A stretch of DNA of 64,000 bases from Branchipolynoe longqiensis. Lineage: Eukaryota; Annelida; Polychaeta; Phyllodocida; Polynoidae. Positions 6,640 to 57,145 of the stretch are shown one piece after another. The notes below the pieces were generated by a model. The model was given only the letters and a program-made list of their open reading frames with translations. It did no database searches and was not told the DNA's origin. A program made the position numbers and the translations under genes. Location of the stretch: positions 45,329,015-45,393,014 of the forward strand of contig CM059189.1 in assembly GCA_030323885.1 (NCBI GenBank), in the 5' to 3' direction. Numbering within the stretch: position 1 is the first letter of the stretch; every line of letters starts with the position of its first letter.

Positions 6640-7428
6640 AAAATCAAGTGTCTGCAAGGGCCTGCTGAACTCTTCCTCGGTCTAGGTCACCGACTCGACA
6701 ATGAAGCGCCCCATGTAGGTGCACCACTGATACATGGGTCCAGTCACCCGTTTGATTACCCCTACTTTCTGTACAGGCCCTGATTTTTTATTTTTTTTAC
6801 TAAATTTATTTTATTCAGCGAATAATGTCTTCTGTCAGTGCCAGAGCACTGGTCTTCCGGCCGTTCATTACAATTTGTTGGTACATAAATGACAATATCA
6901 CTTGCAATAATAACCACATGAAAAACCTGTTCGATAATAGAAACATAATATTAATTAACTATTCGTTGTAATAGTAACTGCATACAATTCCAGTTCAGCA
7001 TATGTATTATGCACTTGATGAGCATGCATCAATAAATGGACAAGATGATTCTAGAATTGTCTTTAAACACTTCTTTCTTCCCTTGCTTTCTCTCTTCTTT
7101 TTTTAAAAAGATATAACATATCTCCAATACACATATATATATTATATTGTAAATATGCAAATCAGTGGATCCGATCACCAATACCAAATGCGAGAAACCT
7201 GCCCATTTTTTAATCCCATCACAAGTGTTCCGTATTGTGTGGCCTAATGATGGGATCGGAGGTCTGCGATTGCAGTGGGGACTTACATCAGACAGGTTTT
7301 ATGTCAATTTAAAGGAAAATGCTAGGTAATAGGTTTTGAACGAAGGTGTAGTAGGGGGTGGGGTAGGGGTGGGAAGGGGATCAGCGTGCAGGGCTGTGTA
7401 GTGCATTTGAGAACATTTATATATATAT
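6640..7428. other. no gene seen
   Basis: AT-rich, with a short TA-rich patch at 7124-7150 and a G-rich patch at 7350-7380. A GAGCACTGGTCTTC motif (about 6843) recurs near 10971, hinting at an old shared repeat. Confidence 0.5.
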
Positions 7429-7442
7429 GAGGAGTTCAGGCG

Positions 7443-7640
7443 CAAAACCAAGTAAGTCCATTTTAATGAGAAGTGAGATAACCAATGGAGACAGCACTTC
7501 TTAGTCCCTAATACACAATGAGCAAATCAGTTCTGTTTCAAAACCTGGTAAGTCCTATGGTAAATCGGCCCTAAAATACGGTTTTGTTGCAAAACCTTGT
7601 AAGTGCCATTTGAGTTTGTCTGCAGAACCACGTAAGATGT
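7443..7640. promoter_or_regulatory. four left subterminal repeats, CAAAACCNNGTAAGTCC type
   Basis: Copies lie at 7443-7460 (inside the TIR), 7539-7556, 7590-7607 and about 7622-7639 (degenerate), all in the same orientation. The right end holds three inverted copies. Repeats placed this way are typical of transposase-binding sites. The binding role is inferred. Confidence 0.75.
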
Positions 7641-7766
7641 ATAGGGCCAATCAGCGGCGCATGTCAGGTCACATGACGCACAAAATGGCGGCGCCCACAT
7701 TCCCTATTTGTACGCGCTGATATTGCTAGCTTCGTTCGGTCTACAGTTGTTTTGTCGACGTTTATT
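7640..7766 (+). promoter_or_regulatory. putative promoter/5' leader of the transposase
   Basis: The GC content rises just upstream of the transposase ATG. A TCACATGAC E-box-like site lies near 7668-7677 and AAAATGGCGGC, a YY1-like initiator motif, near 7682-7692. No TATA box is obvious. The assignment as promoter is inference from motif and position. Confidence 0.4.
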
Positions 7767-10018
7767 ATGGAAACCTACGATGCAATTGATGAGAACGTGA
7801 TGTTATCAACATCGGGAAAGCGTAAACGACGTCAGCCACAAAATTCCACGCGTTCTAGAGCCAAAGCAGCTCGCTACAGTGGAGGAGGTTTGATTCCGCG
7901 TGTCAAATGCGCGCATAACAATACCGTATGCTCTGCCCAAACTTTGACAGAAAACGATTTACAGTACATAAAAGAGCAGCTGTATGTCACCTCAGATAAA
8001 GTTAAGCAAGATGCAATCCTTGTGTCCCACATGGATATAACCCAGGTCCATCGCCGAAGGCCAAGAGAAGAAAATGAGGAAAGGGCACACAACAGAGGTG
8101 TGTCGATCAAGTACAGCTTTGTGAAGGAAGATAAAACGAAAATTTCAGTATGCCAGGCTTCATTTCTCAGCATATTGTGTAAGTATCGTTCCACATATGG
8201 CAAGAAATTTAATCTATTCTAATTATAGTTTATTTAATTTAATTATACTTATGATATTATATTTGCGCGCGCGCAATTTGCGAGCGCGCAAATTGCTAAC
8301 ACTTGTGCACGCGAGGGTTCTCGGTGGTATGAAGTGGGCGTGTCTACTCGCCTTGAGCAATTTGCGCGCGCGCAATTTGCGAGCGCGCAAATTGCTAACA
8401 CTTGTGCACGCGAGGGTTCTCGGTGGTAAAGCGTTGCTTAGCGACTAGCTAAGCAACGATCGGGGGTCGGGCGTTTGGGGCCAGACCCGGCGGACGTGTT
8501 TCTACACGCTCCGTCGTTTTCCAAAATAATTATAATTATTAACACGTAGGCTCGCCTTAGGCGGGGGCGGAAAAGCCGTACGGTTAAACTTACATTGACT
8601 AGAACCTGTAATAAAAGTGTTCATTAGCTTTGTTATATTTAATTTAATTCATTCTTTCAGGTGTCAAGGAATATCGAGTACAGAGCATCGCGAGGTTCTG
8701 GCTTGAGCAGGGTAGATCTCCTCCGGAATATCGTGGTGGTTACAGGAGAGCTGCAGAAAATGAGGGGAAGAAGGAGAGCGTCCGAAATCATATAAAGTCC
8801 TTCACGTGCAGAGCTAGCCACTATGCTCGTCGAGGTGCACCAGGGAGGAAGTACCTTCCTAGTGATTTAAGTGTTGCAAAGATGCACAAATTGTTCCAGA
8901 CGCAGCATCATGACAGGATAACGTACTCACTGTATTGGAGCATTTTTGTGTACGACTTCAATCTATCATTTGGTCACCCTGCCACAGATGTATGTTCCAC
9001 ATGTATGAAATTCCGCTTGAAAATTAAGGATCTAGAGCAAACCCCTGATGAAAAGCGAGAAAATCTTCTGCTGTATGGGTTGCATCGTCGCCGTGCCCGT
9101 CAATTTTACACCAAGATGAATGAGGTGGGAGATAGTTTCACTGTCTGTTTTGATGTCATGGAAAATCTGGTACTTCCGAAGTCCCCAATAGGGCAAACGT
9201 ATTATTCTCGCCAGTTATACATGTATGTGTTTGGGATTGTTCGTCACCGAGGTAGAGGAGAACCGCAGGGGAAAGATGACATTCATTTATATACATGGCT
9301 TGAACATCAGAATGCCAAAGACAGCAATACAATTGCTTCTGCATTACGTGATTACTTAGGTTCAGTGGTTAACATGGACATAAATCAAACTGAACTCCTA
9401 CGTTTGTTCTCAGATTCTTGCTACGGCCAAAATAAGAACATTAACGTTTTATCCATGTTGTTTGCTTTGTGCAACCAGAAGTACCCAAATCTTACTGTTG
9501 AGTAAACTTTCCCAATACAGGGACACAGCTTTCTTCCTGCAGACCGAGTGTTTGGAAGGATCGAGCAAGAAATCCGAAAGAAGGAAACAATATTAATGCC
9601 AGAGGAATACTGTGAGATTCTGAGGAACCATGGTTCTGTTCATGTGTATGGAAAGGATTGGATGTGCTATGATTACAAAGCAGAATCAGCCAGTTTCACA
9701 AAACGTCAAAGATCTTTCAAAATTAGTGAGGCAAGAGTGCTACAGATTTCTAAGAAAAATTTGGGGCTCAAAAGTGCATTTGCTGGGGAATATTGTCAAC
9801 ACTCCCTTCTAAAAAGGGGGAAAAAGTGGGCACAGTTCAATCCTTCACTACTGGCTGACATTAACTGCGTGAAAGAGGCTAAGAAGCAGGATGTCATGAA
9901 GCTGCTGAAACAGTTGGATGTAAATCAAGAGGTTCGGGGTTACTATGAGAATGCCCTCTCTCATGATGGTGATCAGAACATTGTGCAGGACCTTGAGGAT
10001 AGTGGTGATGATGAGTAA
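7767..10018 (+). pseudogene. transposase, two exons, one internal stop
   Basis: Exon 1 is 7767-8178 and exon 2 is 8661-10018, about 589 codons. The donor GTAAGT (8179) and the acceptor TTCTTTCAG (ending 8660) keep the frame. I chose the ATG at 7767 because upstream in-frame codons lack an ATG. The N-terminal part is basic (SGKRKRRQ, followed by a KRRQP-like patch). Exon 2 opens with [13 protein letters not shown], a likely DNA-binding helix. There is a CSTCMKF cysteine pair. Candidate catalytic acids lie in [24 protein letters not shown] and the FLPADRVFGRIEQE region. TAA at 9503-9505 interrupts the frame between the second and third acidic motifs. The frame reopens at once and the family-like sequence continues to 10018, so this is a single nonsense change, not a second gene. 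The family and catalytic residues are inferred from motif memory. Confidence 0.8.
8179..8660 (+). other. transposase intron with GC-rich tandem duplication
   Basis: The intron carries two tandem copies (about 8265-8328 and 8362-8427) of a block rich in GCGCGCGCAATTTGCGAGCG and ending in TGTGCACGCGAGGGTTCTCG. A further inverted segment (AGCGTTGCTTAGCGA against TAGCTAAGCAACG) follows at 8429-8458. The composition is quite unlike the AT-rich flanks, so this may be a separate insertion inside the intron. Confidence 0.7.
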
Positions 10019-10082
10019 GCTTATGGTGGAAATTGTGTGTTCTTTGATTCTGCAAGATTTCCATAAGATTAGTCTTTGACAA

Positions 10083-10327
10083 TGGACTTACATGGTTTTG
10101 CAAACAAACCGAAAGTGGACTTACTTGGTTTTGCAGAAAAATCAATAAAAGTTGATTAATTAATGAGTTTTGGAATAAAGGTTCATTTATCACTTTCATA
10201 GTATTTTGTTCATTGCCCATAACCCTATAATACAAAGAAAAGTGGAATTACTGAGAATTATATTTATGGCCATATACAAATCTTGATTTTAAAACAAAAG
10301 AGGTCGGGTGGACTTACTTGGTTTTGT
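10083..10327. promoter_or_regulatory. three right subterminal repeats (inverted)
   Basis: Copies of GGACTTAC-TGGTTTTG lie at 10083-10101, 10116-10134 and 10309-10327 (in the TIR), opposite in orientation to the four at the left end. Confidence 0.75.
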
Positions 10328-10344
10328 GCCTGAACTCCTCATAT

Positions 10345-21026: not shown

Positions 21027-21803
21027 CTAATAGACTACATCACCGTTCCAGCAGCGCGGTGCATTATGGGATGCGTCAGAGCAAAACAAACCCGCGAGAA
21101 GCACATGGCACATGCTAATATACTGGGTGCAGCTATGAAATGTGCTAGTTTCAGCTCATCTCAGCTCTTGTTTTTGTTTGACACATAGAATACCAACTAA
21201 AAAAACATATACAATAAATTAAGACATTAATCATTTATCCAGTGTTGCATTTATATCAATATAATCAGCACATCTTATGCCATGTGCATTTAGATTTAGA
21301 CACGTCTCGGCACTCAGACTAGTGTTAGAGCCATAGCCAGAGTCAGTTTTATTTATTTTATTCATGTTTTTATTTATATCCTATGGTTAATGACATATGT
21401 AGAAATAGAAAATGAATAAGGGTTAATCAGATATTAGTTATATATTTCTGTGAAACAAGTTTTTGTTGACATATTTGACAATTTAATATTTAGAACAAGA
21501 ATTACTTATGGCTAATCAATGGTGATGTAAACATCAACCTTTAAAGTGACTGAAATTGTATGTTTCTTAGCTCAAAATGCTTAATTATGGAGAGTTGTGT
21601 CTTAAACATATTCATTATATTATTATATTGCATCCTTCCATCCATGTTTGTGCAAAGCTGTTAGGTATTTTGATTAATTTTGAATAAAATCTAAGTTTTG
21701 CCCTCTGGGTATCGGCAAACTCAATGGCCGTAAGTCTTTGCTTTGCTGCCAACGGCGCTTTCAGCGCATGTGCAGTCGGAACCGTGATCCCGTCTATAGG
21801 CCT
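21027..21803. mobile_element. MITE-H copy, about 775 bp
   Basis: The ends are inverted copies of a TAGACTACATCACCATTCCA-type sequence (right end diverged). The body is shared in opposite orientation with 44601-45352, including CTCATCTCAGCTCTTGTTTT, CATCTTATGCCATGTGCATT and TTTAGAACAAGAATTA. No coding capacity. Confidence 0.75.
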
Positions 21804-24362: not shown

Positions 24363-25303
24363 TGAAGAGTTCAGGGCCTATATGTATGAGTCAATTTTTA
24401 ACCTGACTGGGGTTAAAGGAGGGTGCCGGGTTATCTAACCCCGGGGTTCCAAATGTGTCACGGGGGATGTATGGGTCCAAAGCGCGCGTGGGTTAGCTAA
24501 CGTTTCAGTTATTTATAGATTTGGGGAACCCCTGTGTGCGTATTTACATTCGTCGATTCGACACTATTAATATCTCCGCCAATGCGCCAGCAGCCTTAAT
24601 AATGGTTCGAATTTAGGGTTAAATTGGTAAACTTTCACTATTTGGCTATGTAACTTTGTTAAATATGATCGCATTGAATAGATTTGGGCCTAATATATAG
24701 CCGCCGATTCGGCGGCGGCGCCGGCGATTTGTTTACTTTACATTTGTCGATTCGACAATATTCATCATAATGCTGCCAATGCGGCGGCAGCGTTAATAAC
24801 GCTTCGAATTTAGGGTTAAATTGATCAAATTTCACTTATTGCGTATGTAATTCTGTTAAATATGATCGCATTGAACAGATTTGGCTATAATCGGTGCCTA
24901 ACCCCACCTTTAACCGTCCTATCACTTGGGGTTAGTGCAGGCGACTTTAAACTCGCTGAGTTAGTGTATCCCCGACACATACATATGCAGTTTTCGCCGC
25001 TAACCCGGGAAATCCGCACGACGCAGGGTTACGACCGCTAACCCGGGCTCATACATATAGGCCCAGGTGTAAAAACCGACAAATCCAGTTTAGGTGTTCT
25101 CTGTAAAATATCATTTGTTGTACTCTACAGATAAAGCCTATCAATTTCATATCAAGTCATGCATTATATAGGGGAAGTGCTAGTTTCTGGGGATACAAAC
25201 AAAGATTTGATTATCAGAATGATGGCAGCTTCAGCTCAAACCTGCTAGTCATTGTTTCATTTCAGTCCGAATGGCATTTGTCAGTTTTTGTGCCTGAACT
25301 CTT
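24363..25303. mobile_element. MITE-T copy split by another element
   Basis: The left end GAAGAGTTCAGG is at 24364 and the right end TGCCTGAACTCTTC ends near 25303. The left end breaks off after about 12 bases and resumes at about 25047 (AGGTGTAAAAACCGACAAAT) after a nested insert. The right half matches 31580-31766. Confidence 0.65.
24374..25046. mobile_element. nested element within MITE-T, about 670 bp
   Basis: Inverted ends GCCTATATGTATGAG and CTCATACATATAGGC. The inside has two diverged tandem copies (about 24545-24695 and 24750-24890) containing TCGATTCGACA, AATGCGSCAGCAG and TTCGAATTTAGGGTTAAATT. It also has several GTTAGC/GGGTTA blocks near both ends. Confidence 0.6.
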
Positions 25304-25398
25304 CATATATATATATATGTATGATGAGGTTGGTTCGCAGCACTCAACATTTGAAACTGAAAGAAAAGACACTAACATTGGTGTGTCAGTTCAATATT

Positions 25399-25636
25399 TG
25401 AAGGTTTCAGGTGCAAAACCATGTAAACGTCATTTGAAAAATAGAGATAAACATTGAAATCACACCTTCAAAAAGTTCCTTTTTTAAATCCTTATTTTTT
25501 GGTTCACTGCTCCATGATTATTATATCACTAGAAAAGTAGAATTAATCACAATTAATATTAACTTCTTGAAAAAAATCTTTCATTTTAATCAACATTTTG
25601 GATTGGCTTTTACAGGGTTTTGCGCCTGAACTCTTC
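25399..25636. mobile_element. MITE-T copy, about 238 bp
   Basis: The left GAAGGTTTCAGGTGCAAAAC and the right GGTTTTGCGCCTGAACTCTTC are inverted. Length and inner sequence (GTAAACGYCA, AAAAAGTTCCTTTT) match the copies at 1593 and 40969. Confidence 0.75.
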
Positions 25637-31579: not shown

Positions 31580-31766
31580 GAAGACTTCAGGCACCAACAC
31601 CCATTAATCCGGTTTAGTTGTACTCCATAAAAGAGAATTTATTCTTGTGCTTTAAAAAATCCCACATAGTTAACTATCGTAATGATTGCAGCTTCAGCTC
31701 AAACCTGGTAGTCATAGTTTCATTTTGACCTGCATGACATTTTCGGTTCTTGCACCTGAACTCTTC
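31580..31766. mobile_element. MITE-T relative, about 187 bp
   Basis: Left GAAGACTTCAGGCACCAACA, right TGCACCTGAACTCTTC. The right half (GCAGCTTCAGCTCAAACCTG, then AGTCATAGTTTCATTT) matches the right half of 24363-25303. Confidence 0.65.
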
Positions 31767-34719: not shown

Positions 34720-37620
34720 TTTATTGAGGCTGTATTTATACTGTCCATAGCATGTAAGCCCGGGTACCCAGGCTTGTTTTCAATGCTGGCCAGCGGTAGT
34801 TTTGGTGTTGTCTTACCAAGCAGTAGCTGCTGATAAGTTATTTGATTGTCTGAATTTCAGTAGCAGATAGATAGTCTGTTGGTATGTTTAGTAGTCTATG
34901 TTAGTTTTTTTGGGGCCCTCTTGGCATTGTATTTTTGTTCTATTCTTATTACTATGTTAGTTGTTTTCTTAAGGTTCTATGTTAGTGTTTTGGGGTTTTC
35001 TTGGGAAGAGTTTTCCACTTTTTTCTACTTAATTCTATACTAGCCTATTTTATTTACATGTCCATAGGCCAGTACGTAATACGTGGTTGAGTTATGTTTG
35101 TTTGAATTTGATTTGACTTATATTGTTGTTAGATATGTTATCTGGCTTTTATATTTCTGTTATCCCACCCTGGGCTGTCCAGTTGGGGGCCGTGACATAT
35201 CACCTGCCCCCTTGTGGTGCAGTTCAGTTGGGGTTTCCAATTTTTATTTTGCACAGATATTTTTTGTATGTTTTTAGGTCAGGGATTTGTCTTTCTTTCA
35301 CCGTTTGGACATTCCATGCCTTGGCGGCCATTTCCAGCATGCTCCTTTCATGGGCTTTGATTCGGCTTCTGGTCTGCCTTAGTAGTGGTGCCTTGCTTGC
35401 TTTGGTGTCCCTTAGTGGTTGGGTTAGATGCTTAATGTCTTGGCTATATCCATATGCTAATGTTTTTAGGTGGATTATTCTTCTGTTTTCTAGTAGCTTT
35501 ACTTTAGTTCTTTTGTGTAGGTCATAAGTGGGGTGTAGTTTGTCTACTTTCAGGCAGATTTTTAGGGCCCTATTTTGTATTATCTGCAATTTTTTTAGTA
35601 GCTCTTTTTTAGCACCCATGTAAATTACATCCCCATAGTCAAAGTAGGGGAGTACCATGCCTTTGAAGAGTTTTATTGACATATCTTGTGTCATATAGTT
35701 TCTTAGTTTAGCAAATAGCCATAGTTTGTGGTTTACTTTTTGTATGATTGTTGTTACACACAGATTGTAGTTTAGCTGGCTATCTAGTTCTAGGCATAGG
35801 TATTTGTAGTGATTTACACTTTCCAGTGTTTGGTTTCCTAGTGTACATTGTAGGTTTCTTCCTGTGATTGCTGTATGTGAGAAGAGTACAGTTTTAGATT
35901 TATTTGAATTCATGGTTATTTTATTGGATTCACACCAGCCGTCCAGCTTTAGCAGGAGGTTGTTCAGTTTGGTTGCTATCTCCTCTACTGTGCTTCCTTC
36001 TGCATATACGACAGTGTCATCCGCATTTAGCTGGAGACATTCTGTCTCCAGCCATTTTTCTAGGTCGTTTATGTATAGTATAAATAGTAGTGGTCCCAGG
36101 ACTGATCCTTGGGGTACACCACAGGTGACTGTTTGTTGGTCTGAGAGTGTACCATTTACTTAGGTTTTTTGCTGTCTGTTGTTTAGGTAGCTTTTTATCC
36201 AGGTTATTGATTTGGATGTAATGCCCATGTTGTTTAATTTTCTTATTAATATTCTGTGGTCTACAGTGTCAAAGGCTTTGCTGAAGTCGATGAAGGCTGC
36301 TCCAACTAATTTCTTCTGGTTCAATGATGCCAGCACATCACTTGGTAGGTTTTCTATTGTTTTTGATGTGGAGTGCAGTTTTCTGAAACCTCCTTGCCTC
36401 TTGTTTAGTATATTGTTTTTTTCCAGATGCTCATTTATGTGCCTGTGGAATATTTGTTCAATTAGCTTGCCTGATGTTTGCAAGATTGATATTGGTCTGT
36501 AGTTCCCCATGTTTTGTTTGTCACCGCTTTTGTAGATGGGGGTGATGGTTGCCATCTTCCATGCTGTGATGAAGTGTCCCTGTTCAAATGATATGTTGAA
36601 CAGGTCGACCATGATATCTCGGATGGATCTATGTCATTTATTAGTTGTGTTTCGTTTTGTTGCAATATGCGTTAACAGTTCCCTGTCTACCCACGGGTCT
36701 TGGTTTCTCTGTATTTTTAGTTTATTTATGGGACACATCTCATCTAATGATTGTTTTATTTCTGTGACAATGTTATTCCAGTAGATATCAGTGTCATCTC
36801 TGTTTGTTGTGAGGTTGTCTATATTTTCATATAGGTGTTTTTTTAATGTTTCTTTTGAGTAGTTTCTTAGGGATCTGCCCATCTTATATTTATATTGGCC
36901 TGTGTTTTTGAGTTTTTTCCTCGTTACATATATTAGCTCAATGTCACTTATACCCCAGCTTCTGGTGCCCCATTCTGTGGCATGGTTTGAGTTGGTTAGT
37001 ATTAGGTCAATTGTTGAGCTATTGTTTCCTAATCTTGTGCTGTCTGTAATAAGTTGCAGTAGCCCTAGGATTTTGATAGTGGTTTGTAGCATTAGTTTAT
37101 TTTTGTCGTTGCTACTGTAGTTTATGTTGAAGTCCCCTAGCACAAAGATTTCTGCATTTGTTAGTTTTCTCACTGTATTTTTGCTTTTGTCTAGAGTTTC
37201 AAGGAATGTTTCAATATCCCCGGACGGTGGTCTGTAGAGGCTTGCTATGGCTATGTTAGCCTGTTTCTCGTTTTTTATTAGGCACCATAGTAGCTCCAGG
37301 TGTTCATTTGAGTTGTTTGCTATTTTTAGGGCCTCAGTGTCTAGATTTTTTGAGGTTTTGCAGTAGATTGCAACACTTCCACCTTTTTTTGTTTGGTTTG
37401 CTATGTTAATTTGCTGTCTGTCTTTACGTACAAGCCTATATCCTTCTATGTTGAGGGTGTTGTATTGATGTCTGTCAGTGAACCATGTTTCTGATAGTGT
37501 TAAAAAAGGTGCATTTTTATTGTGTCTATTTTAGTGGATGCACTCTGGCAGTTTAGGTGGGCAAAGTGTGTGCCCCTTCCCAGCTTGCATTCAATTTCTT
37601 CTACCATCTTCCTTTACCAT
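34720..37620 (-). mobile_element. APE-type non-LTR retrotransposon (LINE), internally deleted
   Basis: Endonuclease and reverse transcriptase lie in the same minus-strand frame, followed by a 3' flank that also occurs as a separate insertion at 13600-13905. Motifs and domain order fit the Jockey/CR1 assemblage. I cannot place it further. Coding detail is in the next entry. Confidence 0.85.
35224..37600 (-). pseudogene. LINE endonuclease-reverse transcriptase, damaged
   Basis: Endonuclease part (about 37600-36634): GTHFAHLNCQS start, SETWFTDRH, YRPPSG, LGDFNINY, TIDLILTNS, then GISDIELIYV, where most relatives have SDH. The catalytic histidine appears replaced by Ile. A poly-T indel near 37503-37510 shifts the frame. 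TAA at 36634-36636 ends the endonuclease frame, and only about 20 bases later RT begins (VDLFNISFEQGHF). The roughly 100-residue linker and RT start usual in the family are missing. RT part: TPIYKSGDK, FIDFSKAFDTVDH, TAA at 36160-36162, then CGVPQGSVLGPLLF and NADDTVVY (usually F/YADD). The C-terminal part runs to 35224. No ORF1 was recognised. Confidence 0.85.
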
Positions 37621-40968: not shown

Positions 40969-41204
40969 GAAAAGTTCAGGTGCAAATGCCCGTAAACACC
41001 AATCCATGAATTGACTTACAATTTAACAAATTTACCTGAAGGTAATGTGAATTCTCATTAATTCCACATTGGTTGTAAAGAAATGGTTATGGAGCAATGA
41101 ACACAAAATTAGGAATGTAAAATCCTAACCTTTTGAAGGTTTGACTCCAATGTTTATTTCAATATTCGGATTGGTGTTTACAGGGTTTTGCACGCAAACT
41201 CTCC
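40969..41204. mobile_element. MITE-T copy, about 236 bp
   Basis: Left GAAAAGTTCAGGTGCAAATG, right GGTTTTGCACGCAAACTCTCC. The inner CGTAAACACCAATCC at the left is mirrored at the right by GGATTGGTGTTTACAGGG. Confidence 0.7.
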
Positions 41205-44600: not shown

Positions 44601-45352
44601 TTATAGATTACATCACCATTCCAAGTGCGCATGTGCTGAAAACGGCATTGGCAGCAAAGCAAATGTGTCTGGCCATTGAGTTTGCCGATACGCGTAGGGC
44701 AAAACTTCTATTTGATTCAAAATGAAGAGAACTACATAACAATTTGACATAAACATGTATGCACATATGCAATATAATGATCTGATGAATATAGCTAAGA
44801 AAAAACTAGCCATAGTTTAACATTTTGAGCTAAGAAACATATGATTCCACACAAAACAATCAGTGATATCCAAGTCACCATTATTAATTCTTGTTCTAAA
44901 TATTAAAATGCCAAATATCTCAACATACACTTGTTTCAGAGAAATATATAACCAACATCTGATTAACACTACTAATTTTCTACATCTACATATGTGATTA
45001 ACCATAGGATATAAATAAAAACATTAATAAAATAAGTAAACCTGTCTCTGCCTATCGCTCTAACACTAGTCTGAGTGCCCAGATTTGTCTGAATCTAAAT
45101 GCACATGGCATAAGATGTGCTGATTATATTGATGTAAATGCAATGCTGGATAAAAGATTCATATCTTAATTTATTATATATATTTTTTTAGTTGGTATTC
45201 TATGTTTCAAACAAGAGCTGAGATGAGCTGAAACTAGCACATTTCATAGCTGCACGCTGTGTATTATTAGCATGTGCCATGTGCTTCTAGCGGGTTTGTT
45301 TTTCTTCTACGCATCCCACAATGCACTGTGTGGCTGGAATGGTGATGTAGTC
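44601..45352. mobile_element. MITE-H copy, about 750 bp, opposite orientation
   Basis: Left ATAGATTACATCACCATTCC, right GGAATGGTGATGTAGTCTAT. The body is the reverse complement of that of 21027-21803. Confidence 0.85.
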
Positions 45353-45794
45353 TATTACCAAAGATAACTATGAGCTGTTTTAGCATTTCCGAAAATCAGT
45401 GTAGGCCCAACATACCACAAGGAGCTGTCAACAATACGGTCTATTTAAACACAATCACCCGCTTGCTATCTAAAAAAAGAAAGAACCTCACATAATACAG
45501 CTGTAATAACATATTATCAGTAGCTTGCCATTTTTTAGGATTAGACAGTATATATATATTATTTTTTCCCAATCTCTTTTGGCATTGATTGAGTTGAACC
45601 GTCCAACAAATCAAAGGTAAGTTCAATCAATCTCTCAGTCTGTGTCGGTATATTTAATGGTATGCTATTAAGTTTTTTCTATCTTTAAATAATTAATGGA
45701 GCCAATATTCAACTTGACAAGTGGGTGTGCAGCACACTTGTGACTAGGCGTGTCTGTAGACTGACACCCGTTGCCACGATACAGCTGACTCATC
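45353..45794. other. no gene seen
   Basis: AT-rich, with a short TATATATAT run near 45550. Confidence 0.45.
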
Positions 45795-50195: not shown

Positions 50196-51151
50196 TCAAC
50201 CAAATAGTGTTGAGAGTGCCCGGGTCGCGGCCGAGAAGGCGTCGGGGCAGACATATCGGTGGATGGCGGAGGACCGCCAGTGGCCAATGTCGCGAACGTC
50301 CTGAAGGGTCGCCCCGGCTGCGGCACAAGCCTGGGCGGCGCCTCTGCGTATACTATGGAGAGTGTATTGTCGATAGTTTTGGACGGCGCTGTGCTCGAGC
50401 GCTTTCCGGAGGATACGGGTCATCGTCCGTGTCGTCAAGGGGCCGTCGGTGGAGGTCATGAAGGCTGGGTCGTCAGGGGCCAGTCGGGTGTAGGCGGCGT
50501 AGCGCCTCCAGGCGCGTACAGGGCAGTAGTTGGAGTTCTGTACCCTGGGTATTCGGATGGTGTAGGCGTCATGGGGCGATCGGGAGGTCTTAGTCGACCG
50601 CACCTTGACGATGAGGTGGGTCGTGTGGTCAGTGACGTCGGCGGCTCTGATGGTGTGCCCCGGATCGTCCCTGCGTCCGGTCACCAGGAGGTTTCCTTGT
50701 CTTAGTAGGGTGAAGTAGGCCATCAGGAGGGTCGACCTCAGGACAAGGGCCCGGTGGCCCGCGTCGGACAGGTAGTCGAGCACTCTCCTGAGCTGTTTCA
50801 CGGACAGTGGGGGCGCCTGCCTAGTCACGTGGTGGGAGGACCTCGTTACGCCGCGTTTGACAGTGGCGACTAGGTAGGTGTCAAAGGGGGCAACCGCGCC
50901 TGTCGACAGGCTGACCCATGTTCGGGCAGCGCTGAGATAGTTCATGACTGCCCCGGGTGTGGCCAAGGTGTCATCGAGGTGGGCAAGGTATGCGGCGACG
51001 TCCATCTGCTTGGGGCGGCGTGGGTCGTAGGAGGTCATCCGTGCGTGTTTGAGGTACCTCCTTGTTTGTTGTATCTTGTTGCGCCAAGTTCCGGGCGCTA
51101 GTCCGGCCCGGAATAGTCGGATGATGTCTTGGTTTCCGTTGCGGGTGCCTG
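50196..51151 (-). CDS. tyrosine recombinase of the DIRS element
   Basis: The enzyme is expected to insert the circular DNA copy by site-specific recombination, in place of a DDE integrase. Counting from the ATG at 51038, the catalytic set is visible: Arg113 (FTLLRQGNLL), Lys near 150 (VRSTKTS), His228 and Arg231 (HSIRRGAA), His253 (IGHWRSS) and Tyr262 (IHRYV). The frame stays open upstream to about 51151 with GNQDIIRLFRAGLAPGTWRN and a QQTRRYLKHAR segment, which looks like the start of the N-terminal SAM-like domain. The true start is therefore probably upstream. A CTCTCTCTCCCCAG just before it could be a splice acceptor or simply spacer. This is the only domain of the element without a lesion. 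Confidence 0.88.
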
Positions 51152-51184
51152 GGGAGAGAGAGGCAAATTAACGAACTCCCCAGG

Positions 51185-51847
51185 CTAGAGATTTCCGGCG
51201 AGGATGTCAATGTCATGTGTAACTCGGATCCGTTCGAGGTCCATATCCTCCACGAAGCGGTCTGCCTTGCGATGGGCAACTTCGTCGAATGGGGCCCTGC
51301 TGAGGGCATCGGCGAAGGTGATCTCGACGCCGGGTTTGTGGAGGACCTGGACCTCGCAGGAGCGGAGAGCGGCGAAGGACCAGATTGCTCTGGCACAAGC
51401 ACAGAGGATGGGGTCCCTCCCGGCCCCAGAGTCGAGAACCATCTGGGAAGACTGGTTGTCAGTATTGACTATTATGGCATAGTCATGTGGGTTCGGGGGG
51501 GAGAGTGCGTGGAGGGCCACAATGAGGTTGAGGGCCTCTAGCTGATGAATGCTGTGGTTGCCTTCCAGGAAGTTTTCTGAGTACGCCTCGGAGAGGTACC
51601 CTTTTGGTGAGTGTGCGCCTCCGGCCTTCAGGGAGGAATCGCATTCGATGATCCACTCGTGTTTGGGTGGTGGGCGGAGGAGGACCACGCCGTTTGAGGC
51701 TGCGGCGTAGGTGAGGAACCAGTGGATGTCCTTTGTCATGTCGAGTGTGATGGGGTGTTTTCCGGTGTGAGGTGCATGTCGGAGGGCATCGAGTATGCGG
51801 TTCATGAATCGACGTGCTGGGCGCACACACCTGGCTACGTGTTGTAG
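51185..51847 (-). pseudogene. RNase H domain of the DIRS polyprotein
   Basis: The domain degrades RNA of the RNA-DNA hybrid during reverse transcription. Acidic residues are in order: IIECDSSLKAGGAH, HQLEALNLIVAL, IIVNTDNQSS and FADALSR. The frame is continuous with the RT thumb across TGA at 51848-51850. That codon is a CpG-type CGA-to-TGA change, since the flanking sequence reads on without gap. It ends at 51185, about 35 bases before the recombinase frame. Confidence 0.85.
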
Positions 51848-53913
51848 TCACCCGACCAGTCGCTGGAGGTCTTTCTTAGATGCCTTTGCCTGTGGGGTCC
51901 ATCTGCGGCATTCGTCGATCACGTCAGTGAGCTTAGGTGATGGGATCTTGACCGTCATGTCATCAGTGTCAACCACGAATCCGAGCCATTCGAGGGAGTG
52001 GGTCGGGGGAACACACTTCTGGGGTGAAAGGGCCAGGCCCAGGTCTGCCGCGAGCTCTAGGGCGTCGAGGTAGGCGGCGTCCGCCATTTTTGGGATGCTG
52101 CCACTCCGACAAAGTCGTCCAGGTAACAGAGGACGAAGTGTCCTTTGCGGCGGAGTAGGTGGACGACCGCGTTCGTGGTTCGGGCACAGGCCATGGAGGA
52201 TGTGCGGCACCCGAACGGGGGGGCGATGTCGAAGTATGTTAGTCCGTCAAGGGTCACTCCAAGTAGTGGGACCGACAGTGGGCAGGTTCGTAACTGTCTG
52301 TAGGCTCTGGCGAGGTCGATGGTCCAGACACACGCCCCGACCCCCAGGCGGGTGATCTCGTCCGTGAGGTCAGCGATGTTAGGGAGGGTGTATGTGGCGG
52401 GTCGGCCTTGATAGTAGCCTTTTCTAATGCCCGAGTTGACGCTTGCGCCCCTCGGGAAGCTCAGGTCGACGATGATCCGCCTCTCCTGAGTGTTCTTTTT
52501 AGGGCGGGTCATCATCGGGCTGACCTGCGCCCAGGGCGTGAAGGGTGGCTCGAGGAAGGGGCCGATGAGGGCTCCCTTGGCCGCCTCGATTTGGATATAC
52601 TTCCTGACCCAGGCGAGGTGCTGGGGGGCCTCGCGGTGGTTTGCTGTGGAGGGGACGGTGGTGTAGTCAGCGGGCCACCCGTACTCCAGGAAGTCCACAA
52701 GCTGGTCGTCGTGGTATCCAGTAAGGAGGTCCCTCCAGCGGTCTATGTTGAGGTCGGATGGGACTGGGATCCGAGCTGCAATGTAGTTGGGGAGGCCTGA
52801 GCGCCTCACCTCGTCGTATGTATATCGATATATGTCGTTTTTCCATATCTGGGGTATGGAGGTAGGCCAGAATCGGTCTAGGATGTTCCTATATGAGAGT
52901 GGTGTGTGCGGAGGGTTGTAGTGGGGTGCCGCCGAGGTGAGGTCATTGTTGGTGACTTCGTCAATGTCCTCGTCGGCCGCCTCTCTTTGGTAGTAAGTGA
53001 GTAGGGCGTCGAGAGGTTCGGCCTCGTCGTTGTTCGTCCTATTGTCGTCGACGTGGTGGGTTATCGGCGACCGAGAGAACGGCTGAACACATCCGACCGT
53101 GGTGCGGGTCGGCTCGTAGCGGACTACAACAGCAGTCTGTGGTGGGTTGTCATCGACTGGTCGTTCTGTGTCAGTGATGTTCTCGGTGGTTTGTGCCGTC
53201 TGGGGCGGGTCCTGGGTGCCGTCGGATCTGAGGGGGGCTGGGAGGTGTGGGATAGGGGTGGCATGTGGGGTGGTGGAGTCTGGGAGTGAGGTCGAGCCTG
53301 TGGCGGGGTGGGGTGTGGGGGAGGGTTGGGTGCGGTGGAGGGTGGTGATGGGGGAGGCGGGGTGGTGGGGGGTGGTGTGGGCTATGGTTGGGGTGGAGTG
53401 GTTGCTGAGAGTGGGGTTGGGGGTGGGGGGGTTGGTAGGTCGGCGTGGTTGTGGTTGGGGGGGTGAGGTCGGGGGTGGGTGGGTGGGGTATGGGTGTGGG
53501 TCGGCGTGAGGGTGGGGTGCGGGTGTCCGTCCGATGCCAGTGAGCACGTGGTCTGTGTCGGTCTGGTTTTGGTCGTGGCCGTTAGGTGGGCTGGCGGCGT
53601 GTGCGGTGGTTATGTCCGTGGTGGCGTTTGATGGTCGTACCGCCTGAGGGCCGTCTGTCCCATTAGCGCTGCAGGGGTCTTGTGGCGGGCGGTCGGGCGT
53701 CTGAGTGCTGGGGGCAGTTTGGGGTTTAATCACCTCCGACCCGGGTTCGTGTGAGGTGCTCACCGCGTCGGTTGTGGTCACGTGGTGGGCTGGGGGCATC
53801 TGAGCGGCCATGCGTGGGGTGGGTGCAGGGGGCGCTAGCGTCCCACGTGGCGTTTTGGCGGGAGTCTGGTGTCCGTTGTCCGCGTCCCCACGCTTGATTT
53901 TGGCGGGAGCCAC
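51848..53913 (-). pseudogene. reverse transcriptase of the DIRS element, frameshifted
   Basis: The long N-terminal part (from about 53913) is Pro/Thr-rich low complexity. Structured sequence starts near PLSYRNILDRFWPTSIPQIW. RT landmarks follow: EPPFTPWAQVSPMMTRPKK, RRIIVDLSFPRGASVN, CVWTIDLARAYRQL (first catalytic Asp), FGCRTSSMAC and CYLDDFVG (Asp599-Asp600). Near 52087-52100, in CCCAAAAATGG, a one-base loss shifts the frame. The thumb continues in another frame (DAAYLDALELAADLGLALSP, SLEWLGFVVDTD, KKDLQRLVG) to the stop at 51848. Gag lies upstream. Confidence 0.88.
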
Positions 53914-54068
53914 GTGTGCGGCGGTTCCGTGTTGTGTCGGGCGTGGGGATTTGGCGGTCTCCTGGTATGCATTGTCTGCGTTCCCGCGCGTGGTGTTTGC
54001 GTTTTTGACGTTACGCGTGTCTGGGCCCGGGTCAAGGGTGGCGTTTTGGTCGGCACGTGCCCAGCCGG

Positions 54069-55358
54069 TTAGCGAAAATCCGCTTTTTGTTGTTCGTCGG
54101 CCTCGGTCGCGGCCGCTTTTCTCTCTAGTTGCCGCTTTTTGTTATTACAGTCTTGTTCACGGTGCGGGTTCGATTTTCTGTACTTGTTAGCACACCAAGC
54201 ACATACATGGGCGTACTTTTCGCTGCCTGTTCCGTGGGTGGCCGTGAATCCGCATTCGTTCCCCCAGTTCCACCTGTGGCAGGGGCGGCCGTCTGTGTCG
54301 GGTACAAACTCCGGCCTCTTATAGGGGGTGTTAGGTGCGGTTTGTTCATCCTGCCTGTGTTGGGCTCGCTGTGGTGCCTCCGATCTGGCCGTTCTCCTCT
54401 GCTCCTCTCTCCGTATGCCCGCTAGGCACGCTCCTCTCTGGAGATCTTTTATGGCTTGGTCATCGCGCCAGCCCCTAGGGAGGCGGCCGTCGTCTATCAT
54501 GGCGAACGTTTTTCTCCGACCATGCCAGACACGTCTCCCATTGCCACTCGGCGGCCATGGAGCAGATTTCATCTTGATGTTCTATGATGGCTTTGATCCA
54601 GTGGTTGGGGAGCCTTGGATCTTTCCTCATCCGGGCAAGGGCTGACATGTACTCGTGCCAGTTGCTCTCCCCCAATCCTACCTTCCCCTTCTTCTCATCA
54701 CGAATCACGTAGGTATGGGGGAGAAACTGCCTCCTACCTCTGCTCTTTGGTCGTCCTTCGTCGTTCGTCTCTAGTATTGCGTCCACGAATTCTTTGTGTC
54801 GGCGGTCATCGTCGCTGGAGGAGTCTGAGTGGGCTGGTCACGCCGTTCTGCTCCTGCGTGTTGCTGTGTGTTCGTCCTGTTCATCGCGTCCTCCTCTGTG
54901 CTTCCTCCTGTTGCTCCTGCAGCTCCGACTTGAGTCGTTGGAGGTTTCGCGCCACCCGCGACCACGTGGCGACGGGGTGCGCGGCGATTCTGTTTCGTGG
55001 CGTCTCCTCCGTTTCTTGCTTCGTGCCTCGTCCGGTGATCTGCTCAGGGTGCGGGATGTGCGTTTGGTGGTCTCCAGGGCTCTGACTCGCTCTGCCATGT
55101 CCTTAGAGTGGGCCGCCTGTTGCTGTATTGAGTCCGCGACGGATTGCCGTAGGAGTGCAATCTGACGCGCCGTGGTCCCGTCCTCAGACTCAGTGTCTTT
55201 TTGTGCTGTCGTCTGTTTTTTTGCCACTACCGACCGTGGTCTGCCGCGGAGGCGGGGGGGGGGGGGGGGGTTTTGGTCGTTTCTGTGTCGGCGGCTTGGT
55301 CGGCGGTCTGGGCCTGAGCCGTTGCGGCGGCATGGCGTGGTGTCTTGCGTGGCGGCAT
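54069..55358 (-). pseudogene. Gag-like protein of the DIRS element, three breaks
   Basis: ATG at 55358 starts MPPRKTPRH. A 17-base poly-C (55254-55270 on the plus strand as G) throws the frame. A basic, coiled-coil-like part follows (ALLRQSVADSIQQQAAHSKD, then KKRRRRHETES). TGA at 54838-54840 is in frame with the next part (FVDAILETNDEGRPKSRG, ESNWHEYMSALARMRKDPRL, HWIKAIIEHQDEICSMAAEW). A one-base slip near the AAAAACG at 54510-54520 leads to the last part (DDGRLPRGWRDDQAIKDLQR). That part ends in a Cys/His cluster, CHRWNWGNEC, HVCAWCANKY and HREQDC, resembling the zinc knuckle of DIRS-type Gag proteins. Confidence 0.75.
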
Positions 55359-55705: not shown

Positions 55706-55802
55706 AATTAGGAATTTATTTGCTGAGTTAAGAATTCAGGGAGTCATCAGGGGATTGAATCCATTATACCGGAAATTGGGAGAGTGCTCGTGCTGATCAC
55801 TA

Positions 55803-56880
55803 GTGCGCATGGTCGCTGCTGTTGCTGTGTGTGGATGTGTGTTGCTGCGGTGCGTGGTTGTGTGTGGATGTAGGTGGCTGTGTGTGGGTGTGTGTGGTTG
55901 TCTGTGGCTGTGTGTGGTTGTGTGTATGTGTGTGGCTGTGCGTGGCTGTGTGTGGCTGTATGTGGCTGTGTGTGGATGTGTGTGGCTGAGTGCGGCTGTG
56001 TGTGGCTGTGTGTTGATGTGGTGTGTGGATGTGTGTATATGTGTGTGGCTGTGGGTGGGTGTGTGTGGTTGTGTATGGTTGTGTGTGGTTGTGTGTGGCT
56101 GTGTGTGGCTGCGTGTGGCTGTGCGTGGCTGTGTGTGGCTGTATGTGGCTGTGTGTGGCTGTGTGTGGCTGTGTGTGGCTGTGTGTGTCTGTGTGTGTCT
56201 GTGTGTGGCTGTGTGTGGCTGTGTGTGGCTGTGTGTGGCTGTGTGTGGCTGTGTGTGGCTGTGTGTGGCTGTATGTGGTTGTGTGTGGCTGTGTGTGGCT
56301 GTATGTGGTTGTGTGTGGCTGTGTGTGGCTGTATGTGGCTGTTTGTGCATGTGTGTTGCTGTGGTGTGTGGCTGTGTGTGGATGTGTGTGGATGTATGTG
56401 GCTGTGTGTGGATGTGTGTTGATGTGGGGTGTGGCTGTGTGTGGCTATGTGTGGCTGTGTGTGGCTGTGTGTGGCTGTGTGTGGCTGTGTGTGGCTGTGT
56501 GTGGCTGTGTGTGGCTGTGTGTGACTGTGTGTGGCTGTGTGTGGCTGTGTGTGGCTGTGTGTGGCTGTGTGTGGCTGTGTGTGGTTGTGCGTGGCTGTGT
56601 ATGGCTGTACGGGGCTGTGTGTGTGGTTGTGTGTGGATGTGTGTGGTTGTGTGTGGCTGTGTGTGGCTGACTGTTGCTGGGTGTGGCTGACCTGGTTGTG
56701 CATGGCTGTGTGTGTGGCTGTGTGTGTGGATGTGTGTGTGGCTGAGTGTGTGTGGTTGTGTGTGTGGCTGAGTGTGTGTGGTTGTGTGTGGGGCTTTGTG
56801 TGTGGCTGTGTGTGGCTGTGTGTGGCTGTGTGTGTTTGTATTAGATGTGTATGGTTGTGTGACTGGTGTGTCTAGTTGTG
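55803..56880. repeat. GGCTGTGTGT minisatellite, 1.1 kb
   Basis: A 10-bp unit TGGCTGTGTG with G/A/T variants throughout. It drives long open frames in five frames (VCGCVWLCVA; TQPHTATHSH), up to 318 residues, none of which I accept as genes. Confidence 0.95.
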
Positions 56881-56934
56881 TGTAGCAAGAGTTGTTGGTG
56901 TTGCTGTGTTTGGCTGTTGCTGTAGGAAGCTGAC

Positions 56935-57145
56935 ATAACTAGCATAGTTGGCATAGTTGGCATATTTGGCATAGTTGGCATAGTTGGCATAGTTGACATA
57001 GTTGACATAGTTGGGATAGTTGACATAGTTGACATAGTTGGCATATTTGGCATAGTTGGAATAGTTGGCAAATTTGGCATATTTGGCATAGTTGGCATAG
57101 CTGGTGTCACTGGCATAGCTAGTGTAACTGGTGTAGCTGGACAGA
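56935..57145. repeat. 9-bp GCATAGTTG minisatellite
   Basis: About 22 units of GCATAGTTG or ACATAGTTG. It reads as a PTMPTMSTM-type frame on the minus strand, an artefact. Confidence 0.9.

Follow-up and report, generated by a model that had tools for sequence, protein, structure and literature searches.

A probable Sola2-like DNA transposon with a DUF7869 transposase in the annelid Branchipolynoe longqiensis

Sola DNA transposons are characterized, in the passages devoted to them in PMC10741241, by 4-bp target duplications, a DDD transposase and a size of mostly 2–9 kb. For Sola2, passages of PMC3627910 describe an AT-rich, AWWT-like 4-bp duplication. Here, we analyzed a 64-kb stretch of the Branchipolynoe longqiensis genome (GCA_030323885.1, contig CM059189.1, positions 45,329,015–45,393,014; hereafter the window, numbered from its first base). 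Our analysis confirmed that a DNA transposon lies at positions 7429–10340, where inverted ends and duplicated ATAT flanks enclose a transposase gene of two exons. We estimate a probability of roughly 80% that it is a cut-and-paste transposon of the Sola type (Sola2-like), whose spliced gene encodes a 589-amino-acid DUF7869 transposase.

The transposon, a 2912-bp copy on the plus strand, is bounded by 32-bp terminal inverted repeats (TIRs) at 7429–7460 (plus) and 10309–10340 (minus), which match at 31 of 32 bases, and is flanked by ATAT at 7425–7428 and 10341–10344. A preliminary description of the window had given exactly these boundaries, ends and flanks. The 18-base motif GCAAAACCAAGTAAGTCC lies in the inner part of the TIR and recurs, always facing inward, four times on the left (plus strand, 7442–7639; starts at 7442, 7538, 7589 and 7622; 0–5 mismatches) and three times on the right (minus strand, 10084–10327; starts at 10084, 10117 and 10310; 0–1 mismatches). 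These repeats are candidate binding sites for the transposase. The ends of the element begin with GAG; those of Sola2 may read 5'-GRG.

The 1.85-Gb host genome was searched with the element; scores were computed for 40 of 3341 first-look candidates, which makes the counts lower bounds. At least ten places, including the window copy, aligned over the full element at 97–100% identity, and many more aligned in at least two pieces. For the duplication check, 39 further copies were taken with 300-bp flanks, giving 40 with the window copy. Identical 4-bp flanks were present in 37 of the 40 (29 ATAT, 2 ACAT, 2 ATTT, and 1 each of ATGT, ATCT, GTAT and AATT), while two had N in one flank and one, L039, was mismatched, with the flanks AATT/ATAT and a damaged left end. 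The preliminary description had proposed comparing the duplications across genomic copies, with differing lengths counting against it, and the length proved constant at 4 bp in these 37 copies. Flanks of ATAT may agree by coincidence where an insertion lies in AT repeats, and the strongest evidence therefore comes from the eight pairs other than ATAT and from the empty sites. In the empty-site comparisons, the flanks were joined with one copy of the four bases and aligned to unoccupied relatives of the target repeat. The aligned positions were 274/296 and 257/291 for L021, 255/284 and 235/283 for L040, and 262/286 and 272/287 for L013, confirming the 4-bp target duplication. The left flanks of L016 (contig C7) and L018 (C16) were identical, so that the pair probably represents a single insertion that was either duplicated or assembled twice. 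L018, whose right flank is N, was therefore omitted from the copy alignment, leaving 39 aligned copies. The window also contains, at 21028–21752 and 44603–45357, two copies of a repeat into which the transposon has inserted at least three times elsewhere in the genome (L021, L037 and L040).

The transposase gene comprises exon 1 (7767–8178), a GT-AG intron (8179–8660) with two 69-bp GCGCGC-rich repeats (8261–8329 and 8360–8428), and exon 2 (8661–10018), which encodes DUF7869, all on the plus strand. The two exons had already been recognized in the preliminary description. Spliced together, they give 589 codons plus a stop; a fish relative (P0003) is also 589 amino acids long, and the snail gene model P0002 has an exon 1 similar to that of the transposon. 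At 9503–9505 lies a premature stop, TAA; this codon is TAC in each of the other 38 copies aligned. Because this stop precedes the third conserved acid, the product should be inactive, and the window copy is probably dead. An uninterrupted copy, which had been suggested as a check, was found, as the spliced frame was open and the splice dinucleotides were intact in 26 of the 39 aligned copies.

The DUF7869 profile (PF25273) has a curated cut-off of 26 bits; the protein scored 26.4 bits up to the stop and 47.4 bits when read across it. In exon 2 numbering, D165 (9152–9154), D252 (9413–9415) and D295 (9542–9544), all on the plus strand, are conserved, and the predicted structure places them as in an RNase H-like core. 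We favor D295 as the third acid, and E302 (9563–9565, plus strand) may serve as the alternative. The predicted core appears RNase H-like and resembles retroviral integrases and mariner transposases; this view of the fold is based on the order of its strands and helices and on realigning Foldseek's own candidates with VIA-align.

The superfamily, left unnamed in the preliminary description, is most likely Sola (Sola2-like), because the published descriptions agree with the length of the duplication, the AT-rich target, the size of the element and, probably, the triad. The 4-bp duplication occurs in 37 of 40 copies and is borne out by the empty sites, the TIRs are 32 bp long where Sola has at least 11 bp, and both the window copy and the shorter copies described below (2675–2716 bp) lie within 2–9 kb. 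Moreover, 32 of the 37 duplications conform to AWWT (29 ATAT, 2 ATTT and 1 AATT). We have good confidence that the element works like a Sola2 element, and moderate confidence that it is one, a membership judged from the published descriptions.

Several points weigh against this assignment. Five of the 37 duplications depart from AWWT by one base (2 ACAT, 1 ATGT, 1 ATCT and 1 GTAT), and three of the six empty-site comparisons (L037, L030 and L045) were too gapped or weak to count. E441 of the snail protein P0009, which is E302 here, is conserved in 70/76 and D434 in 69/76, so the triad may be DDE rather than DDD. With plain Foldseek nothing matched at E ≤ 0.001, the top rank being Argonaute PIWI or TnsB, and no PDB chain matched the protein by sequence at E ≤ 10. 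Finally, the transposase has 589 amino acids, compared with 888 for the only Sola2 transposase length given in the passages of PMC3627910.

The length difference also favors an alternative in which DUF7869 transposons constitute a separate superfamily, with the same cut-and-paste DDD/E chemistry and with Sola2-like duplications acquired by convergence. No sequence link to Sola was made, and neither DUF7869 nor PF25273 is named in the literature searched. Passages on Sola in a Repbase overview and a bivalve survey, and those of a TET/JBP transposon paper, give no sequence signature; for the letters GQNKN, the literature searched yielded five papers, on ecology and evolution judging by their titles. 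In its broader form, DUF7869 would be an unrecognised animal-wide DDD/E superfamily distinct from Sola, in which the 5' module (5' subterminal repeats, N-terminal region and intron) was swapped between lineages and the catalytic 3' module was kept. However, the duplication length, AT-rich target, size and probably the aspartate triad fit what the Sola passages describe, and we consider a separate superfamily unlikely in either form.

Two other superfamilies do not fit. Mariner elements duplicate TA and have ends other than those of this transposon. The duplications here are 4 bp long and several (ATTT, ACAT and AATT) lack TA, in contrast to the 2-bp TA duplication of Tc1/mariner described in passages of PMC10741241. 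The 4-bp length likewise does not fit Zisupton/KDZ, for which passages of PMC12730594 give 8-bp duplications, or 7 bp in Kyakuja.

Under the Sola2-like assignment, we propose the following mechanism. The transposase would bind the 32-bp ends and the inward-facing 18-base repeats, and an RNase H-like DDD center (D165, D252 and D295) would perform the cutting. The joining of the ends to the target, which is AT-rich and palindrome-like, would be staggered by 4 bp, and repair of the stagger would produce the 4-bp duplication. The window copy, having lost the third acid through its nonsense codon, could be moved only by enzyme from other copies, and internal deletion in older relatives would have generated the M1-type short elements described next.

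Short elements with related ends accompany the transposon. The window was scanned with a 15-base end motif, allowing up to two mismatches, and 10 sites were found against 0.1 expected from 20 Markov-1 simulations; eight lie in short elements and two in the transposon. The five miniature inverted-repeat transposable elements (MITEs) listed in the preliminary description exist, with the starts 24363 and 25399 corrected to 24364–25304 and 25400–25636. M1 (1593–1828) has ATAT on both sides, as that description had noted, and internal similarity to the 3' end of the transposon. Its family includes M3 (25400–25636; flanks ATTT/TTTG, unmatched) and M5 (40969–41204, end approximate; right end degenerate; flanks ATAT/TGCT, unmatched). 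M2 (24364–25304) also has ATAT on both sides and shares only its ends with the transposon; M4 (31580–31766; flanks ATAT/ATAG) belongs to the M2 family. Within L008 there is a further MITE copy, which is flanked by ATAT at either end. M2 is split by a nested 689-bp element (24375–25063) with inverted ends GGCCTATATGTATGAG and a 3-bp duplication CAG (24372–24374 and 25064–25066), which we take to be a non-autonomous element of the PIF/Harbinger type.

M1, M3 and M5 are mutually 70–73% alike, and inside their ends they match the 3' non-coding part of the transposon over 65 bp at 78%, 92 bp at 71% and 69 bp at 75%, respectively (E = 1e-10, 1e-4 and 2e-8; 5 of 900 shuffled controls reached 1e-3). 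We read these three as internal-deletion relatives of the transposon. M2 and M4 resemble each other at 82% over 93 bp. What they share with the transposon is confined to 19–28 bp at the ends, with the exception of a single 17-bp match of M2 at chance level. Thus, the proposal that the transposon represents the source family of the MITEs holds as kinship for M1, M3 and M5; for M2 and M4 it reduces to common ends. The direct parent of the five is probably a different one.

The MITE ends are of the GAAGAG type, whereas autonomous copies end in GAGGAG. Exact 21-base ends occur 4130 times in the host genome for the GAAGAG (M1) type and 561 times for the GAGGAG type, and reversed controls occur 0 times. 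The M1 relatives scored were 80–95% identical to M1, compared with 97.8–100% among copies within the young autonomous subfamilies described below, so that the window MITEs look older than the autonomous copies. On contig C1, inspection by eye of the part listed jointly placed a GAGGAG end near 3 of 5 DUF7869 places and a GAAGAG end near none of the 5. From the end types, the MITE age and these counts, we infer that the window MITEs probably descend directly from an older sister whose ends were GAAGAG and which is now rare or extinct. The same observations, together with the restriction of M2 and M4 to common ends, make it improbable that the five MITEs stem directly from the window's own subfamily and are mobilised by it today, even though the ends differ by few bases (the right end of M1 is 26/27 identical), M1, M3 and M5 have 3' internal sequence in common with the transposon, and M1 and M2 carry ATAT on both sides. 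Among the first 100 listed of the 561 GAGGAG places, inspection by eye found 12 pairs 2677–3479 bp apart and 11 pairs 648–711 bp apart; the autonomous subfamilies thus seem, from the spacing of these ends, to have their own class of about 670 bp.

The autonomous copies form two subfamilies: A, the window type (ten copies used, 2876–2916 bp), and B (27 copies, 2675–2716 bp). Majority sequences were built from these copies, leaving the A-like L019 and L020 out of A. The mean distance to the own majority sequence was 0.75% in A and 0.51% in B, and pairwise distances were 0.45–2.24% and 0–1.91%. Differences of only 0–2.2% within subfamilies indicate that the family moved recently.

Outside the intron, the two majority sequences differ at 69 positions; the 926 bp ending at 8836 account for 65 of them and the final 1504 bp for 4, so that divergence drops from about 7% to 0.3% (Fisher p = 2e-23, descriptive only because the sites are linked). 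Some of these positions, including three of the last four, still vary inside B. The break zone between the divergent 5' and near-identical 3' modules is 8836–8929. The A and B introns are not homologous, that of A having the GCGCGC-rich repeats and that of B a tandem repeat, and synonymous divergence (dS) falls from 0.204 in exon 1 to 0.022 in exon 2. These observations suggest that A or B arose by exchange of the 5' module before both spread, with a break in exon 2 just beyond 8836. The likely route would be repair-template switching or ectopic conversion. The ratio of nonsynonymous to synonymous divergence in exon 1 is about 0.09, indicating that the lineages were under constraint. The 3' part encodes the catalytic core and is itself constrained, which could suggest differing selection along one lineage in place of an exchange; however, synonymous divergence itself falls, the 3' non-coding part is near-identical too (identity 0.993–1.000 in windows from 9979 on) and the introns are not homologous, which makes this explanation very improbable. 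From these mosaic subfamilies it would seem that 5' modules can be exchanged in a DNA transposon, with both resulting combinations able to spread afterwards.

Older copies appear to be organized differently. In 12 stretches downstream of older exon 2 matches, the element ends were not reached. In 10 of them (L078–L083, L085, L086, L088 and L089), similarity to the transposon resumes only at element position 2603, by arithmetic 420–490 bp farther out than in the window copy; the downstream stretches of L084 and L087 had no match to the transposon. Older copies thus seem to carry extra sequence after the reading frame, and the ten may be a longer, perhaps ancestral class.

The protein family is widespread. 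A protein search gave 501 matches, and the hosts named among the best 120 include snails, sea slugs, fish, a starfish, Hydra, a springtail and a sea spider. A second search from distant relatives gave 546 matches, and the 120 listed, most without an organism name, add insects and one "transposon protein"; no dictyostelid was seen among them. The DUF7869 profile had 121 matches in the host genome (131/131 candidates scored) and none in 14 control genomes. A DUF7869 host gene in a repeat-rich place, as database entries labeling such proteins uncharacterized might suggest, is practically negligible as an explanation in view of dozens of dispersed, near-identical copies with TIRs, duplications and empty sites.

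Other repeats were noted in the window. Adjoining minus-strand frames at 50196–54141 read as tyrosine recombinase, RNase H and reverse transcriptase, probably of a DIRS-like retroelement. Minus-strand frames at 35224–37530 resemble the reverse transcriptase and endonuclease of a long interspersed nuclear element, by reading of the translations. Long tandem-repeat frames of the HTQPHT type at 55736–56938, open on both strands, are probably a simple-repeat artefact.

Our study provides a likely function for DUF7869, a large "unknown" protein family listed in databases as function unknown. The DUF7869 proteins seen in fish, molluscs, insects, cnidarians and others are likely transposases that ought to be masked instead of counted as genes. 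This is a little-explored kind of transposase without a solved relative by sequence. The family is young, its frame is open in many copies and its empty sites are clear, which makes it well suited to study.

Close relatives by sequence include two proteins of the snail Gigantopelta aegis: P0002 (LOC121378605), with 82% identity over 78% of exon 2 and a similar exon 1, and P0009 (LOC121380568, 592 amino acids), with 60% identity over 100% of exon 2. In contrast to the element here, both are annotated as uncharacterized, without a transposase label. Tc1/mariner proteins (Mos1 and SETMAR) and retroviral integrases gave no sequence match to the DUF7869 protein in the search of PDB chains. The dictyostelid Sola2 elements of the DFa and PPa families, likened here by description, differ in having Fanzor genes and, in one case, a transposase of 888 amino acids, according to passages of PMC3627910. 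In those same passages, however, they resemble the Branchipolynoe element in their 4-bp AT-rich duplications, including ATAT and ATTT, their short TIRs, their transposase gene and their derivatives without a transposase gene.
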